The position numbers and the translations under genes are program-made. A stretch of DNA of 33,009 bases, from the NCBI GenBank assembly GCA_905234005.1, contig CAJOFW010000004.1, positions 1-33,009 on the forward strand, written 5' to 3'. The stretch comes from an uncultured Oscillospiraceae bacterium. GTDB taxonomy: Bacteria; Bacillota; Clostridia; Oscillospirales; Oscillospiraceae. Position 1 is the first letter of the stretch, and every line of letters begins with the position of its first letter. Below are positions 22,691 to 33,009 of this stretch, one piece after another. The notes under the pieces were generated by a model that was not told the origin of the DNA, searched no databases, and worked only from the letters and a program-made list of their open reading frames with translations.

Positions 22691-25320
<2,630 letters not shown>

Positions 25321-25351
25321 TCCGGTGATCGGATAATCGCGTCACATCGCA

Positions 25352-25573: not shown

Positions 25574-25643
25574 CGGGCGATATACATAGAACAGGGCGAT
25601 GGTCGCGAAAACGGCGCATGGAACAAAAAGGGGGAATCGACCG

Positions 25644-27027
25644 GTGAACGTCGCGATCTATGTGCGCGTATCGACGCAGGAGCAGAAGCTGCGCGGCATA
25701 TCCGTCGAGGCGCAGGAGGCCGACTGCCGGGCCTGGGTCGAGAAAAACGGCCATACGCTCGCCGGCGTGTACAACGACGCCGGCCTGTCCGCACGGGCGC
25801 GGTATACGAAGCGCCGGGCCATGCTGCGTCTGCTCTCGGACATCGAAGCCGGGACGATCGAGCTTGTCATATTCACAAAGCTTGACCGCTGGTTTCGCAG
25901 CATCGCGGACTACTACGAGGTGCAGACCATCCTGGAGGCGCACGGCGTCCGCTGGCGGGCCATCCGGGAGGACTACGAGACGGAGACGGCCTCCGGACGC
26001 CTCAAGGTCAACATCATGCTCGCCGTCGCCCAGGACGAGGCCGACCGCACGTCCGAACGCATCCGCGCCGCCGCCGCGTACAAGAGGCAGTGCGGCGAGG
26101 TCACCGGCCGCCCGCCGGTCGGCTACGTCATCCGGGACAAGCGATTCGCCGTCGATACGCGGACGGAGCCGGGGCTGCGGGCGTTCTTTGAGACGTACCT
26201 GCATACGCTCAGCGTCCGCGACGCCGTCGCCGAGGCCGCACGGCACGGCGTCCGCCTGACCGCCTCCCACGCCGGACGCATCCTCCGAAGCCCGGTCTAT
26301 CGCGGCGACGCCCACGGCGTGCCCTGCCCCGCCTACCTGACGCCGGCGCAGGCCGGGCACATCGACGCGAACGCCGCCCGCCGTGTCCGCAAGCCGGCGG
26401 CGGGGCGCGTATTCCGCATGCGGGGGTCGTCTCTCCTCCGCCGCCGTGCCGTCCGCGCACAGGCTCGTCAAATACTACCGCTGCGAAAACCACGCCCGTG
26501 ACGCCGCCCGCTGCGCCGAGGGGTGCCACGTCAACGAGGAGAAGCTCGAGCGATACCTTCTCGAAACGCTCGCGCCGGCGCTCGACCGGTACGACGTCCG
26601 CTGCCGCGCCGTCAAATTGCCCCCCGCGCCGGAGACGGCGCATTGCAGTGCGGCGACGGAACGCAGCCGGACGGCGGCACGGCTTGCGAGGCTGCTGGAA
26701 TTGTACATCGACGGCGAGATCACCCGTGAGGATTACGACCGCCGCGCCGCCCCTCTCCGCGCCGCCCTCGCGTCGGAGACGGAGGCGGATGAGACGGCGG
26801 ACGATCATCCGTCCCGGCCGCCGGCCGCGTCCGAGGCCGCGCCGGACGATAAGCTGCCGCCCCATTGGAGAGAGGTATACGACGGGCTGTCCGCCGGGGG
26901 CAGACGGCTTTTCTGGAAGCGGAGCATACGCGGAATCGTCATACAAAAGGGCCGGCCGCCGCTGGTCGATTTTTTCGACGCCCCGCTCGTGGATAAACCG
27001 CCGAACGGGACCGCAAGGATCGTATGA
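25644..27027 (+). pseudogene. Serine recombinase 2, frameshifted in the zinc-ribbon region
   Basis: Site-specific recombinase of the resolvase/invertase superfamily. GTG at 25644 after AAAGGGGG gives VNVAIYVRVSTQEQ, with the catalytic Ser in RVS, then TKLDRWFRSIADYYEVQTIL and the E-A-D-R-T-S-E-R-I helix. The recombinase domain (GRPPVGYVI and on to ILRSPVYRGDAHG) follows. At about 26,415 the frame changes: the first frame ends uselessly at 26501, while a second continues CGGRLSSAAV and KYYRCENHARDA to 27027. Compared with the usual zinc ribbon, the first CxxC pair is gone, so roughly 18-20 nt seem deleted between two TGCGGGG copies. The last four codons and the stop lie in asnB DNA. Probably inactive as written. 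Confidence 0.8.
27008..27011. other. Right attachment junction (attR-like)
   Basis: GGAC after CCGCCGAAC marks the return to asnB sequence (GAC CGC AAG GAT CGT ATG). It is the only sequence shared with the left junction. Confidence 0.65.
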
Positions 27028-27432
27028 GCATGTACAGCGCCCTCGAGGTCCGCGTCCCCTTCTGCGACCACCGCATCGCCGAATACCTCTACAACGTCCC
27101 GTGGGAGCTGAAGGACTACGCCCATCGGGAGAAGGGGCTTTTGCGGGAGGCGGCTCGGGGGCTTTTGCCGGATGAGGTGCTCTGGCGGAAGCCCGTATCC
27201 CAAGACGCACAACCCGTCGTATCTGAACGAGGTGTCCGCACGGCTGCGGGCTGTGCTCGACGATCCCGACGCCCCGATCCTCCGGCTCGTACGCCGCGAC
27301 GCGCTCGAATCGCTCCTGAACGATGACCGGGCCGAGCCGTGGTACGGCCAGCTCATGACCACGCCGCAGACGATCGCCTATATGCTCCAGCTCAATTACT
27401 GGCTCGGACGGTATCGCGTGCGGATTTTGTGA
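27012..27432 (+). pseudogene. asnB: asnB, 3' quarter, with an internal frameshift
   Basis: Remainder of the split asparagine synthetase. It reads RKDRMSMYSALEVRVPFCDHR and then EYLYNVPWELK, the conserved C-terminal part of the synthetase domain. Just after LLPDEVLWRK the frame is lost and resumes as SPYPKTHNPSYLNEV in another frame, ending at 27432. The family reads WRK(K)SPYPKTHNP, so 2 or 5 nt (AG or AAGAG in an AAGAAGAG run) appear to be missing near 27,193. Even with the insertion removed, asnB would therefore need this repaired. No promoter or ribosome binding site is seen for the fragment. Confidence 0.88.
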
Positions 27433-27512
27433 TTCTGTGTTCGGTGATTCTGTGACGCCTTTCCGCGGCGTAAAGCTTCACAGCGATATCGCACGGCCGC
27501 ATTTCACGGCAT

Positions 27513-27539
27513 AAAAAAACACGCCCCCACGGGCGCGTC
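27513..27539 (-). terminator. Rho-independent terminator of the minus-strand RNA
   Basis: On the minus strand ACGCGCCC-gtgg-GGGCGTGT followed by seven T. It lies at the end of the candidate RNA that starts near 27,786. Confidence 0.75.
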
Positions 27540-27563
27540 ATCACTTCGCGGACAGTATATACA

Positions 27564-27614
27564 AGAAGTGACCCTTGATCGTCTCTGTTTCCCACACGAT
27601 CAAGGGTCACTTCT
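27564..27614. repeat. Perfect 17-bp inverted repeat within the candidate RNA
   Basis: AGAAGTGACCCTTGATC (27564-27580) and GATCAAGGGTCACTTCT (27598-27614) with a 17-nt loop. There is no T run on either side, so it is not a simple terminator. Confidence 0.9.
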
Positions 27615-27792
27615 CTGAATTCTTATTATCTAACATCATTGGTTACCTCTCTTTCGTTCGATTGTTCGCCGCCAGCAGCTTGTTGAATCCCACGTCCGAC
27701 ATCTCAATTCTCGTCTCGTGTCGTCGGGCTACTCTCTCTTCTGCCTGATCGGCTTTGCCTTTTATCTAAAAGGCCTTTCACCTTGTGACTGT

Positions 27793-27821
27793 ATAGTACC
27801 ACATCGTTTGTTAATTTGCAA
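27793..27821 (-). promoter_or_regulatory. Promoter of the minus-strand RNA
   Basis: Minus-strand TTGCAA (27816-27821), 17 nt, TACTAT (27793-27798) in an AT-rich patch. Confidence 0.55.
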
Positions 27822-27862
27822 GCGGTAAATTCCCCAAATCATACCCATTTTTATTGTGGAAA

Positions 27863-27880
27863 CCACACAATTTTGTGTGG
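27863..27880. promoter_or_regulatory. Inverted repeat between divergent promoters
   Basis: CCACACAA-TT-TTGTGTGG has perfect 8-bp arms and lies between the minus-strand RNA promoter and the cotH promoter. It could be a shared operator. Confidence 0.4.
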
Positions 27881-27927
27881 ATCCGGCCAAATGCCGGGCC
27901 GCTCGGAGGCGTTTGAAAAATTGATTA

Positions 27928-27955
27928 TTGAAAAACGGGGATTATCTGCTATACT
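27928..27955 (+). promoter_or_regulatory. Promoter for the CotH-VTC operon
   Basis: TTGAAA (27928-27933), 16 nt, TATACT (27950-27955), about 55 nt before the ATG at 28010. Confidence 0.65.
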
Positions 27956-28009
27956 GTCAGGGAACGGCTTTCCGCCGTGAACGATTAAAAAGGAAAGGAG
28001 CTGTGACGA

Positions 28010-30745
28010 ATGGCTCATGCTCTCACGGCGCTGGCCGCCGTTCTCGTTCTCGCGCAGCTTCTCCCCTTTGCGATCACGCCGGTTCTCATCCTCACGCTGC
28101 CGACGGAGCACGGCCTGAAGCCCTCGGTTCCGGAGCGGGCTGTGTGTCTTGCCGCCGGCGCCGTGTGCGATCTTCTCGCGCTTGTCATCGCGGACGCCGC
28201 GCATTTCCATACAATTCATATAACAGGAAGGCTTCTCTCCGTCCTCTCCCTCGGCTGCACGGCGCAGGAGCTTGCCTCGGTCGCGACGTCGGACGCCGTC
28301 GCCGCGTGCGCGGCGGTTCTGATCGGCGTCATCGGACGGTTTTTCCTCTCGTCGCTGCGTCTGCGGTACACGCACGGGCTTGACACCGGCTTCGCGGACG
28401 AGGGCGACCTCTACCTGATCGAGGCGCTGCGAATCTCCCTTTTCGACCCGTATTACCGCGACAGCTGGCTTCGGCTCACCGCCGTCGGACGCCGTGTCCT
28501 GCTTCTGAGCTGCGCGTTCTTTGCCTCGCTCCTCCTTCTGGCGCACGGGACGGCGTATCACAGCCTTGAGTCGCTCCGCATCGCCGGCGTATGCCGCCGG
28601 ACGACGGAGGCGGCCGGTACCGACGCCGAACGCGACGAAAGCCGCGTCATCGTCCGGAACGACGGCCCGCTCGACTGCACGGCCCGGCTCCTGTACCTCA
28701 CCGACGACGAGAACGACCCCACGGCGTACCCGTTTGCCGACGTGTCCGTCCCGGCGGGCGGCACGGCGACCCTCGCCATGGACTACGATCGCGGCGTCGA
28801 CCTCTCCCCCGGCGGCGGCTCGACCGTCTGGCTCATGAACGGCGCGGGCGTTGCTCTCGACAGCGTGACGCTGCCCGCCCTCGGCGAGGATGAGCTGTAC
28901 GTCCTCCGCGCCGACGCCGACGGCAGCGGCGAAGCCTGGGAGATCGTGACGCTCTCGTCGGACGGCGATGCCGCCGTGCCCGCCCCGGTATTTTCACGGG
29001 ACAGCGGCTTCTACGGCAGCGAGTTCCGGCTGTCCCTGTCCGCGAATCCGGGACTTACGATCCACTACACGCTCGACTGCTCGACGCCCACCGCCGATTC
29101 CGCGCTCTATGCCGACGGGATCCGCGTCTATGACCGCAGCGCCGAGCCGGATCGCTACCGTTCCATCGAAAACGTGACGCCGGATTATCTGTCCGCGGAG
29201 GCGGACGACGGGACGGAGAACGACCCGGTCATGAAGGCGTTCGTCGTTCGCGCCGTCGCCGTGGACGCCGACGGCAGGACGAGCGACGTCGTCACAAAGA
29301 CCTATTTCATCGGCCTCGACGCCCTGCGGGAAGCCACGGTCGTATCCCTCGTCGCGGACCCTTACGACCTGTTTGACGACGAGTACGGCATCTACGTCAC
29401 CGGCGCGGACTACGACGCGTATTACGAGCGCGTCCTCGCCGGAGAGACCGTCAGGGTCGGGGACATCCCTCTTCCCAACTACGAGCAGAGCGGCATCGAG
29501 TGGGAACGGGAGGCGAATTTCGAGCTTTTCCGAAACGGCAGCCGCTATATCAACCAGCTCGCGGGCATCCGCATCCAGGGCCACGGCTCCCGCGCCTCCC
29601 ACCGCAAGCGTTTTTCGATCTTCGCCCGGGAGGAATACAGCGGCAGCCGCTATTTCGACGAGCCGATCTTTGACGACGGTCAGGCCCACTCCCTCGTGCT
29701 GCGCGCCGGCGCGATGAACGCGTTCGCGCAGCTCATCGCCGAGGGCCGGGACGTGCTGAGCATCCCGTTCACACGGGCCGCCGTATTTCTCGACGGCGAA
29801 TACTGGTACAACACCTACCTCTACGAGAAGGCCGCGGAGCACCTCTTCACGAACCTCTACGGCGTCAGCGAGGACAACGTGGCGATCGTGAAAAACGGCG
29901 ACGTCACCGACGACGCCCTCGAGGGCGGGAACCCCTACTCCGCCATCTATGAGTTCCTCGCCCGGAACGACCTGTCCGATGACGCGGCCTACGCACAGTT
30001 CAACGACATCGTCGATATCCAGAGCTTCATCGACGCGAGCTGCATACAAATCTATATGGCGGACGTGGACTATCAGGAGCAGTGGAACAACTACCTCTGG
30101 CACACGGTCGTCGCGGAGGACGACGCGTACGGCGACACCCGCTGGCGCTGGGGCCTGTACGACCTCGACCTGAACTGGGCCTCGCTGGACGCGGCCTTCA
30201 CGGTCGAAAACCCGTGGGAGATCAACCCGTTCACGATGTACGGCGTCTACCAGCTCTCCCCGATCACCGAGTGGCCCATCTACGCCGCGCTCCGGACGAA
30301 CGGGACGTTCTGCCGTTCGTTCGTCACGACGTTTATGGACATCGTCAACACGCGGTTCCGGGCCGATACGTACCGCCCCCTGCTCGCCCGGCTCGACAGC
30401 AGCGCCGAGGCGTACGCCGAATTCCTGGAAAACCGCGCCGACTGTATCGTCCCGTACGTCGCGGAGGAGTTCGGTCTTTCGGGCACGCTGGGAACCGTGA
30501 CGCTCACGGTCAGCGACCCGGACGGCGGGACGGTCACCCTCAACACCGTCACGCCGGAGCCGGACGGCAGCCCGTGGTCGGGCGAATACTTCACCGACTA
30601 TCCCGTCACCGTCACGGCCAACGCCAATCCCGGCTATACCTTCGCCGGCTGGGAGATCAACGGCAGGCCCGTCTCCGGCTCGACGGTGGAGGTATCCTTC
30701 GGACAAGGAGGCGTTACGATCCATGCGATCTTCAACAGCCAGTGA
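28010..30745 (+). CDS. Membrane-anchored CotH kinase-family protein with lamin-tail, chitobiase-type and InlB-like domains
   Basis: 911 residues. An N-terminal region with about four hydrophobic segments (1-185) replaces a signal peptide and should anchor it in the membrane. Then come a lamin-tail-like beta domain (~210-320), a chitobiase/hexosaminidase C-terminal-like domain (~324-440, APVFSRDSGFY, then IHYTLDCSTPT), the CotH kinase-like domain (~442-800) and a divergent InlB B-repeat-like end (~825-911, NPGYTFAGWEING). CotH features are the AAVFLDGEYWYNTYLYEKA block and WNNYLWHTVVAED then RWRWGLYDLDLNW, whose D-x-D should bind metal. CotH-type kinases phosphorylate surface or spore-coat proteins. 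AAAGGAG precedes the ATG. Its stop overlaps the next gene by 23 nt. Domain assignment is firm; substrate unknown. Confidence 0.85.
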   Translation: MAHALTALAAVLVLAQLLPFAITPVLILTLPTEHGLKPSVPERAVCLAAGAVCDLLALVIADAAHFHTIHITGRLLSVLSLGCTAQELASVATSDAVAACAAVLIGVIGRFFLSSLRLRYTHGLDTGFADEGDLYLIEALRISLFDPYYRDSWLRLTAVGRRVLLLSCAFFASLLLLAHGTAYHSLESLRIAGVCRRTTEAAGTDAERDESRVIVRNDGPLDCTARLLYLTDDENDPTAYPFADVSVPAGGTATLAMDYDRGVDLSPGGGSTVWLMNGAGVALDSVTLPALGEDELYVLRADADGSGEAWEIVTLSSDGDAAVPAPVFSRDSGFYGSEFRLSLSANPGLTIHYTLDCSTPTADSALYADGIRVYDRSAEPDRYRSIENVTPDYLSAEADDGTENDPVMKAFVVRAVAVDADGRTSDVVTKTYFIGLDALREATVVSLVADPYDLFDDEYGIYVTGADYDAYYERVLAGETVRVGDIPLPNYEQSGIEWEREANFELFRNGSRYINQLAGIRIQGHGSRASHRKRFSIFAREEYSGSRYFDEPIFDDGQAHSLVLRAGAMNAFAQLIAEGRDVLSIPFTRAAVFLDGEYWYNTYLYEKAAEHLFTNLYGVSEDNVAIVKNGDVTDDALEGGNPYSAIYEFLARNDLSDDAAYAQFNDIVDIQSFIDASCIQIYMADVDYQEQWNNYLWHTVVAEDDAYGDTRWRWGLYDLDLNWASLDAAFTVENPWEINPFTMYGVYQLSPITEWPIYAALRTNGTFCRSFVTTFMDIVNTRFRADTYRPLLARLDSSAEAYAEFLENRADCIVPYVAEEFGLSGTLGTVTLTVSDPDGGTVTLNTVTPEPDGSPWSGEYFTDYPVTVTANANPGYTFAGWEINGRPVSGSTVEVSFGQGGVTIHAIFNSQ

Positions 30746-31631
30746 TTCGGTATGGCGCGGACGCGCCGCACGGCTGCTGCTCCTGCTCGCGCTGTGCGCC
30801 GTGCTCGCGCTCTGCTGGGGCGTCGGCCGCGCACACGACGCGAAGAGCGCCCGGACGCCGGCCGTCCCTCTCACGGAGGCGGCGCTGACGGAGAGCCTGC
30901 CCCGCCTTGCCGTCACCGCCGCCGACCGATCCGACGACAGCGCCGGCGCGGCCGCGCTCGACCTGTCCCGGTACGACGGCGAATGCCGGATCGACGAGGG
31001 CGGCGGCTACATCCTCTCCGGCCGGCTCGACGGCACGCTGCGGATAAACGCGCCGGAGCAGACCGTGCACCTCTTTCTCGACGGCGTGACGATCACCTCC
31101 CCGGACGGCCCCGCCGTCCGGGTCGACGCGGCGGACAAGGTCGTCGTCACGCTCCTGCCCGGTACCGAGAGCACGCTGAGCGATTCCGGCGACTACCGCG
31201 CCGCCGCCGAGCTCGAGGCCTGCGTCTTCTCCGTGTGCGACCTGACGTTCAACGGCACGGGCGCGCTGAACGTGACCGGCCTGTACAAGGACGGGCTGCG
31301 TTCCCGGGACGTGCTCAAGATCCTGGACGGCGACATCCGCGTCACCTGCAGGCGCACGGGCGTGCACGGTACGGACGGCATCCTCGTGGAGGGCGGCACG
31401 CTGACCGTCTCGGCCGAGAAGTACGGCTTCCGCACGACAAAGACCGGCACAGACGGCCGGGGCAGCATCGTCGTCGCCGGCGGGGAGCTGACGATCATCG
31501 CGGGCCGGTACGCGTTCGCCGCGAGCCGGGGCGACCTCTATATCTACGGCTGCACGATCCACTGCCGCGCCGTGGTGGACGTGTACGACGTCGCGGGCAG
31601 TGTGCGCATCGAACGCGGGTGCATCGTATGA
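30723..31631 (+). CDS. Cthe_2159-like secreted beta-helix (carbohydrate-binding) protein
   Basis: 302 residues. An N-terminal hydrophobic stretch (RLLLLLALCAVLALCWGV, ~17-34) acts as signal peptide or anchor. From about residue 80 the protein is a series of short beta repeats (YDGECRIDEGGGYILSGRLD, then LFLDGVTITSP, KVVVTLLPGTESTLSDS and LYKDGLRSRDVLKILDGDIRVT), the pattern of the Cthe_2159 family, parallel beta-helix proteins with reported acidic-polysaccharide binding. The ATG at 30723 lies inside the end of cotH and has AAGGAGG 10 nt upstream; the stop overlaps the VTC gene start in ATGA. This tight packing implies one operon and joint function outside the membrane. The ligand is not known here. 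Confidence 0.8.
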   Translation: MRSSTASDSVWRGRAARLLLLLALCAVLALCWGVGRAHDAKSARTPAVPLTEAALTESLPRLAVTAADRSDDSAGAAALDLSRYDGECRIDEGGGYILSGRLDGTLRINAPEQTVHLFLDGVTITSPDGPAVRVDAADKVVVTLLPGTESTLSDSGDYRAAAELEACVFSVCDLTFNGTGALNVTGLYKDGLRSRDVLKILDGDIRVTCRRTGVHGTDGILVEGGTLTVSAEKYGFRTTKTGTDGRGSIVVAGGELTIIAGRYAFAASRGDLYIYGCTIHCRAVVDVYDVAGSVRIERGCIV

Positions 31632-32311
31632 GCAGATACCGGCACGAATACAAATACCTCATCGACGCCGGGCAGGAGGGCATTCTGCGCGTCCGCACCG
31701 CCGCCATACTCCGGCCCGACCCGCACGTCCGCTCCGACGGAAGCTACCTCATCCGCAGCGCCTACTTCGACGACCTGCGTGACACGTGCCTCGAGGAGAA
31801 CCTCGCCGGCACCGACCCGCGCTCGAAATTCCGCATCCGGTACTACAACAGCGATACCGGCCGGCTCACGCTCGAGAAAAAGAGCAAGCGCCGGGGTATG
31901 TGCCTCAAGGAGTCCTGCTCACTCACGGAGGGCGAATGCCGCGCACTGCTCGCCGGCGATACGCCGCCGGTTTCCCCCGACGCGCCGCCGATTAAGAAGG
32001 CCCTTCTCACCGAGCTGTTCCGGCGGGGCCTCGCGCCGAAGGTCATCGTGACATATGAGCGCATCCCCTTCGTCTACGAGGGCGGCAACGTCCGGGTCAC
32101 GTTCGACCGGCGCCTCACGTCGTCAAACGACGTCGGCCGCTTTCTCACCGGCGGCTATGCCCAGCGGCCCGTGCTCCCGACCGGGCACTGCGTGCTCGAG
32201 GTCAAATGGGACGAGGCGCTGCCCCGGTTCATCCGGGACGTCCTCACGCTCGACGGTCTCACCTGGACCGCGTTTTCCAAATACTATATGTGCCGCCGGT
32301 TCCATATGTGA
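31628..32311 (+). CDS. VTC-domain polyphosphate polymerase-like protein
   Basis: 227 residues forming a single VTC domain, the CYTH-like tunnel fold that in yeast Vtc4 makes polyphosphate from ATP. The motifs line up in order: RHEYKYLID, RSAYFDDLRD, SKFRIRYYN, LTLEKKSKRRGMCLKES, VTYERIPFVY, FDRRL, CVLEVKWDEALPRFI and FSKYYMCRRF, giving the basic residues and Glu expected along the tunnel. It has no membrane segment, so it should act at the inner face of the membrane, probably with the DUF4956 membrane protein next to it. It is joined to the upstream gene by an ATGA overlap, and DUF4956 starts 60 nt later. Polymerase activity is inferred from the family. Confidence 0.88.
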   Translation: MSRYRHEYKYLIDAGQEGILRVRTAAILRPDPHVRSDGSYLIRSAYFDDLRDTCLEENLAGTDPRSKFRIRYYNSDTGRLTLEKKSKRRGMCLKESCSLTEGECRALLAGDTPPVSPDAPPIKKALLTELFRRGLAPKVIVTYERIPFVYEGGNVRVTFDRRLTSSNDVGRFLTGGYAQRPVLPTGHCVLEVKWDEALPRFIRDVLTLDGLTWTAFSKYYMCRRFHM

Positions 32312-32371
32312 GCCGTGCCCGGCCGCATTTCATTCGCAACTATTCGATCATCATCCGGGAGGAGAATCAGC

Positions 32372-33009
32372 ATGGATCTGCAATCGGTCATCGAGAGAGC
32401 GTTTCTGGAGGGCTACGCCGCCAGCGACATCGACATCGTCACCATTTTCCTGTGCATCGGCATCACGGCGGTGCTGGGCGTGTACATCTTCATCCTCTAC
32501 CGCCTCACCAACAAGAATTCGTTCTACAGCCGCAGCTTCAACGTCGCGCTGATCGAGCTTGCGGTCATCACCTCGGCCATCATCCTCACGATTCAGTCGA
32601 ACATCGTCGTGTCCCTCGGCATGGTCGGCGCGCTGTCGATCGTCCGCTTCCGCACAGCCATCAAGGATCCGATGGATCTCGTGTTTCTGTTCTGGTCGAT
32701 CAGCGTCGGCATCATCTGCGGCGCGGGCTTCGCGATGATCGCGGTCATCGCCTCCGTCGTCCTCACGATCGTCGTGCTCGTGCTGTATGGCCGCGAGAGA
32801 AGCCCCGACGCGCTCGTGCTCATCGTGAACGCCGACGCCTACGCCGAGGACGCGATTCTGAGCGTCGTGAGCGAGAACTGCCGCCGCTACAACGTCCGCG
32901 CCCGCAACGTCACAAGCGACAGCGTCCACTTCGCGATCGAGGTCAAAACCCGCCGCCACCAGAATCTCATCAGCTCGCTGATGGCCCTCGAGCACGTCAC
33001 CGCCGTCTC
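32372..33009 (+). CDS. DUF4956 membrane protein (partial at right edge)
   Basis: At least 212 codons, open to the window end, so the stop is missing; the family is about 220-230 residues. Three to four membrane helices come first (IVTIFLCIGITAVLGVYIFILY, IELAVITSAIILTIQ, LFWSISVGIICGAGFAMIAVIASVVLTIVVLVLYG). VVSLGMVGALSIVRFRTAIKDPMDLVFLFW is the highly conserved DUF4956 signature between them. A soluble ferredoxin-like C-terminal domain follows (ALVLIVNADAYAEDAILSVV). GGGAGGAG precedes the ATG. DUF4956 genes are frequent neighbours of VTC-domain genes, and the pair may form a membrane polyphosphate-making or exporting complex; that is inference. Confidence 0.88.
   Translation, partial: MDLQSVIERAFLEGYAASDIDIVTIFLCIGITAVLGVYIFILYRLTNKNSFYSRSFNVALIELAVITSAIILTIQSNIVVSLGMVGALSIVRFRTAIKDPMDLVFLFWSISVGIICGAGFAMIAVIASVVLTIVVLVLYGRERSPDALVLIVNADAYAEDAILSVVSENCRRYNVRARNVTSDSVHFAIEVKTRRHQNLISSLMALEHVTAV

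Follow-up and report, generated by a model that had tools for sequence, protein, structure and literature searches.

Genomic organization of the operon

At positions 28010-33009, the window analyzed here (the whole stretch of 33,009 nucleotides) contains four co-directional genes on the + strand that encode a CotH kinase-fold protein, a Cthe_2159 beta-helix protein, a VTC-domain protein and a DUF4956 membrane protein, all of which score above the curated cut-offs in a Pfam profile search. The window lies inside a 36,165-b contig of a 2.52-Mb MAG and ends in a run of N, so that the 3' end of the DUF4956 gene is missing in an assembly gap. The claim of an earlier note on this DNA that overlapping stops and starts link the genes holds for two of the three junctions, CotH/beta-helix (23 b overlap) and beta-helix/VTC (4 b overlap, ATGA), but not for VTC and DUF4956, which do not overlap and are separated by a 60-b gap carrying the ribosome-binding-like GGGAGGAG. 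A ribosome-binding-like site, AGGAAAGGAG, is located upstream of CotH, and a candidate sigma-70-like promoter with an extended -10 element (TTGAAA-16-TGnTATACT; 27928..27955, + strand), identified by consensus match only (1 found, 0.4 expected), sits 54 b ahead of the CotH ATG. No Rfam element was detected in 27000-33009. The 519-aa ORF at 30752-32311 is not a fusion: its frame is that of VTC, prolonged upstream through the beta-helix gene.

When 85,462 species genomes were scanned with the window VTC protein, 20 loci emerged, mostly from Lachnospiraceae and other Clostridia. In 14 of these the genes follow one another directly as CotH-Cthe_2159-VTC-DUF4956, and in two more a single small gene separates CotH from Cthe_2159, so that 16 loci keep the order; the remaining four loci combine CotH with VTC-DUF4956 and lack Cthe_2159. 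Such conservation of gene order far exceeds chance and, along with the common strand and the tight junctions, bears out the earlier proposal that the four genes form one operon.

The upstream neighbors of the operon are a recombinase, an asparagine synthase fragment and a pyruvate phosphate dikinase (PPDK), and flanking genes differ between loci. The serine recombinase is broken into two reading frames (resolvase domain, zinc ribbon) and is followed by an 86-aa C-terminal fragment of asparagine synthase; this region (25599-27432) is the remnant of a mobile-element insertion immediately ahead of the operon. The PPDK reading frame (22691-25336) shifts after about position 25204, with the expected C-terminus in another frame, which reflects a frameshift or an assembly error. 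Past the assembly gap, downstream of the operon, a 688-aa secreted-looking protein that has no Pfam match is encoded (L009 6311-8377). Among 34 other genomes of the genus, none has a close orthologue of the window VTC, the best full-length match being 44%; other clostridia match it at 65-66%. A check for mis-binning showed that the PPDK encoded on this contig shares 91% identity with that of a genus-mate, and that the GC3 of the operon is near that of the neighboring genes. Given that the PPDK is typical of the genus, the contig is probably not misplaced. Patchy loss or horizontal gain of the operon is likely.

Domain architectures and conserved residues of the encoded proteins

The CotH protein (28010..30745, + strand; 911 aa) matches PF08757 (5e-9, 36.4 bits against a cut-off of 23.8), as well as CHB_HEX_C and the InlB-B repeat, and consists of a predicted 4-TM N-terminal region, a beta-rich region, CHB_HEX_C/Fn3_assoc, the CotH kinase domain and a C-terminal InlB-B repeat. 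The N-terminal membrane region (residues 1-187; 28010..28570, + strand) comprises four hydrophobic helices and is present also in most orthologues of the same subclade; according to hydropathy, the anchor has three or four segments in most members of this subclade and, outside it, a single N-terminal segment, often plus one at the C-terminus. The kinase domain (residues about 500-820; 29507..30469, + strand) includes the conserved D687, N693 and D718; in the protein alignment, D687 is kept in all 59 sequences and D718 in 98%, and alignment to 5jd9 places the catalytic/metal-binding aspartates at NFD and WDYD. Foldseek aligns the AlphaFold2 model (pLDDT 85) with Bacillus cereus CotH (5jda, E 6e-9). 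Judging from these alignments, the catalytic aspartates are retained, and the protein is a putative phosphotransferase. The kinase fold and the catalytic aspartates are common to the window protein and the Bacillus CotH spore-coat kinase (5JDA); in contrast to the latter, the window CotH is membrane-anchored through its N-terminal TM region, has accessory domains predicted to lie outside, and shows no spore link here.

The beta-helix protein (30723..31631, + strand; 302 aa), with an N-terminal membrane anchor or signal, matches PF14262 (2e-51, 175 bits against a cut-off of 25.8) and 4peu. The profile match to Cthe_2159 of Clostridium thermocellum (4PEU/4PHB) spans nearly the whole protein (E 1e-46); unlike its Clostridium thermocellum relative, the window protein is operon-linked to VTC and DUF4956, and its ligand is putative. 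The Cthe_2159 family binds acidic pectin.

The VTC protein (31628..32311, + strand; 227 aa, no TM) matches PF09359 (5.5e-32, 111.6 bits against a cut-off of 23) and consists of the VTC domain only, with no SPX domain. Profile alignment to Vtc4 structures equates R74 and R76 (31832..31840, + strand) with yeast Vtc4 R264 and R266, and E196 (32198..32200, + strand) with E426; residue numbers follow P0001, whose start lies five codons ahead of the ATG. The possibility that the tunnel residues are non-catalytic finds no support in the alignment, where these three equivalents are intact in 78 of 78 proteins, and K14, K72, K90, K99, R150, R161, K198 and S222 are likewise unchanged. In yeast, the triple substitution R264A/R266A/E426N in Vtc4 inactivates VTC (PMC9911596). 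Polymerase activity of the bacterial protein is therefore likely, as judged from residue conservation. The likeness to the yeast VTC complex (Vtc1/3/4) extends to the polymerase domain, the key residues and a putative synthesis beside the membrane; however, the bacterial polymerase has neither SPX nor TM, which sets it outside the eukaryotic VTC complex, a distinct MgtC-like protein supplies the membrane part, and exported CotH and Cthe_2159 partners are added.

The DUF4956 protein (32372..33009, + strand, 3' end lost) matches PF16316 (2.3e-12, 47.4 bits against a cut-off of 30.6). In the structural model (pLDDT 81), five TM-length helices are followed by a beta-alpha-beta-beta-alpha-beta domain, for which Foldseek gives weak, partial, ACT-like matches (E>0.03); family members show 3-5 hydrophobic segments by hydropathy. 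A search of the DUF4956 profile against PDB sequences produced no match. Loops 45-54, 92-100 and 142-148 have a net positive charge and loops 73-77 and 117-121 have no net charge, and on the basis of this charge distribution the C-terminal domain is placed inside the cell. Comparison with MgtC proteins gave an hhalign probability of 97.8%, the 204 aligned columns taking in the C-terminal domain, compared to 0.1% for the negative control, VTC against the MgtC profile; the match to Pfam MgtC (PF02308) is 17.7 bits, below the cut-off of 31.4. By these profile comparisons, DUF4956 is a distant homologue of MgtC/SapB and not a member of Pfam MgtC. We know of no established channel role in the MgtC superfamily. 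The residues G86, R92, R94 and G113 are invariant and F93 is conserved at 99%; DUF4956 differs from the MgtC/SapB family in possessing a near-invariant basic motif, R92-F93-R94 (32645..32653, + strand), at the predicted cytoplasmic membrane face, and in being always paired with VTC.

The obligate VTC-DUF4956 pair and its variable partners

Because the 20 loci were collected with a close VTC query, we sampled 300 genomes evenly over Bacillota. VTC is present in 48 of these, DUF4956 in 48, and the two sets are identical; about one in six sampled Bacillota genomes thus carries the pair, and in 14 control genomes both genes occur in the same three. The genome of Corynebacterium glutamicum likewise encodes members of the VTC, DUF4956 and CotH families. 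The chance of such coincidence is about 1e-56, or 1e-41 by genus, in a naive calculation that ignores kinship. Among 54 stretches cut around DUF4956, 53 contain a VTC gene and the remaining one is cut off by a contig edge; the two genes are on the same strand in 53 of 53 pairs and less than 200 b apart in 52, and no VTC-DUF4956 fusion was found among the loci examined. The distances of the two families are correlated (0.924). Where a genome has several paralogous pairs, the nearest relatives of the two members of a pair mostly correspond, which goes beyond what the species tree alone gives, and VTC and DUF4956 are accordingly read as a physical pair. The concern that the genes might not be co-conserved in other genomes is thereby answered: VTC and DUF4956 form an obligate pair.

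The earlier view of the four genes as one fixed unit stands as regards their co-conservation but not their fixity: only VTC and DUF4956 are fixed, and their exported partners, CotH and Cthe_2159, can stand in for each other or occur together. Within 1.5 kb of the 53 pairs, CotH is found at 32, Cthe_2159 at 12 and neither at nine. Among the nine, four pairs adjoin a lamin-tail-domain (LTD) protein, three of these proteins carrying leucine-rich repeats, one has Cthe_2159 at 2.2 kb, behind a two-component pair, and another neighbors a short lipoprotein-like ORF. By hydropathy, VTC proteins lack TM segments, CotH has an N-terminal TM segment, and Cthe_2159 proteins have a signal or anchor, often with a lipobox. 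Taken with the partner survey, these predictions yield the rule of VTC plus DUF4956 plus an exported protein, the third partner being variable but nearly always predicted to be exported. In the VTC tree, the loci that combine CotH with Cthe_2159, the window included and L068 excepted, fall into one supported subclade (SH-aLRT 98); across the tree as a whole, 15 changes of partner type are required. L068 has all four genes in a row in another order, VTC-DUF4956-CotH-Cthe_2159.

Several individual loci deserve mention. The lamin-tail-domain protein replaces CotH as the exported neighbor of VTC-DUF4956 in L080, L081, L088 and L094. In L027 and L029, two neighboring CotH genes and Cthe_2159-VTC-DUF4956 lie within a polysaccharide cluster with dTDP-rhamnose and ABC-transporter genes, and a small, conserved protein is encoded between CotH and Cthe_2159. 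The host genome holds three VTC-DUF4956 pairs, on contigs C4, C11 and C86. The pair on C11 (L011, 6446-9802) has a divergent 570-aa Cthe_2159 protein 175 b off, and the divergent pair on C86 (L010, 2678-4924) neighbors a metallo-beta-lactamase-fold protein with a lipoprotein-like start, with no CotH or Cthe_2159.

Neither PPK1 nor PPK2 was detected in this MAG; given that it is 90% complete, the absence is weak evidence. Avoidance of PPK1 as a sign that VTC replaces PPK was rejected at the phylum level: PPK1 is present in 13 of 48 VTC genomes and 31 of 252 others and is, if anything, commoner with VTC (Fisher p 0.013), so that VTC is no simple replacement for PPK.

Possible functions of the VTC-DUF4956 systems

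Sequence comparison supports the operon, the obligate pairing, the co-evolution, the catalytic residues, the predicted topology and the exported partner. The layout suggested earlier, with a cytoplasmic polymerase, a membrane protein, and extracellular kinase-like and beta-helix proteins, agrees with the predicted topology. We tentatively favor, at a probability that falls somewhat short of even, a bacterial VTC system in which VTC would make polyphosphate, DUF4956 would be the membrane or export part, and CotH and Cthe_2159 would use or hold the polymer outside; here, we infer polyphosphate as the product, its export and the outside roles of the two exported proteins. Like yeast Vtc4, the cytoplasmic VTC would use ATP to build polyphosphate within a basic tunnel. 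DUF4956 would dock VTC at the membrane and offer the nascent anionic chain a passage, the role of the Vtc1/3/4 TM pore in yeast, where polyphosphate synthesis is coupled to translocation along a basic path; R92 and R94 at the cytoplasmic face would suit such synthesis-coupled translocation. CotH outside the cell would be without ATP, with polyphosphate as a possible donor from which it perhaps takes phosphate to phosphorylate a surface protein or glycan, and the Cthe_2159 beta-helix perhaps binds polyphosphate through calcium, as it does acidic pectin. Against this scheme weigh the kinship of DUF4956 with the MgtC superfamily, the lack of PPK1 avoidance among VTC genomes of Bacillota, and the missing close orthologue of the operon's VTC elsewhere in the genus. 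The fully specified version of this scheme, a polyphosphate export machine in which VTC feeds the MgtC-like protein, CotH uses the ATP-free donor and Cthe_2159 anchors the polymer via calcium, is doubtful.

Among the alternatives, polyphosphate might stay in the cytoplasm, with DUF4956 acting as an MgtC-like regulator that senses a metabolite or the ATP/phosphate state and tunes VTC, and with CotH and the beta-helix protein being co-regulated surface or biofilm genes. The kinship of DUF4956 with MgtC, its ACT-like C-terminal domain, and the HK/RR, GGDEF or PAS genes that flank some loci are consistent with such a role; however, it would leave unexplained the exported third protein at nearly every pair and the invariant R92/R94 at the membrane face, and we consider it unlikely, if worth serious attention. 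Somewhat less probable still is an accessory function in exopolysaccharide or wall-polymer synthesis, whereby VTC and DUF4956 would supply or pump a phosphate donor, CotH would phosphorylate a glycan or a protein carrier, and the beta-helix would bind glycan. Cthe_2159 is a carbohydrate-binding family, and the polysaccharide clusters of L027 and L029 fit this function. So does the report that streptococci and clostridia have genes for CotH, polyphosphate polymerase, DUF4956 and DUF4832 beside pelDEADAFG, and that in bifidobacteria they occur with a DGC/PDE (PMC7112168). By contrast, no pel or other polysaccharide genes lie beside the window operon (about 6 kb upstream and 3 kb downstream covered), and the flanks vary between loci. 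That the four proteins act independently and are merely useful together is highly improbable, considering the identical phyletic sets of VTC and DUF4956, the co-evolving paralogues and the gene overlaps in many genomes, even though CotH occurs without VTC elsewhere in the genome (G000:C65).

If the favored bacterial VTC system indeed makes and exports polyphosphate, it would constitute a second bacterial route beside PPK. It would also provide a function for DUF4956, suggest a role for one branch of the MgtC superfamily, and answer how the extracellular kinase-fold CotH could obtain phosphate outside the cell. The components are small and conserved.

Relationship to previously described gene clusters

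A part of the set, namely CotH, polyphosphate polymerase and DUF4956, has been in print since 2020, when Whitfield et al. described these genes, with DUF4832, beside pel operons and suggested regulation of Pel by phosphorylation (PMC7112168). The three genes are contiguous in both cases, but the window has no contiguous pelDEADAFG, and Cthe_2159 is second in its order CotH-Cthe_2159-VTC-DUF4956. A literature search that included few subscription journals and preprints found three papers that name DUF4956, and no paper on the obligate VTC-DUF4956 pairing, the MgtC kinship, or Cthe_2159 in the set. In the NELoc-2 locus of Clostridium perfringens, a VTC-'tubulin'-VTC-'tubulin'-CotH cluster likewise pairs VTC with membrane proteins of about 225 aa beside CotH, but the pairs are duplicated, a resolvase interrupts the cluster, and the partner is annotated as tubulin/FtsZ (PMC2879425). 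These partners, CP4_0461 (226 aa) and CP4_0464 (222 aa), which adjoin VTC and are annotated as tubulin/FtsZ GTPases (PMC2879425), are probably misannotated DUF4956 proteins, as suggested by their size, membrane location and position.
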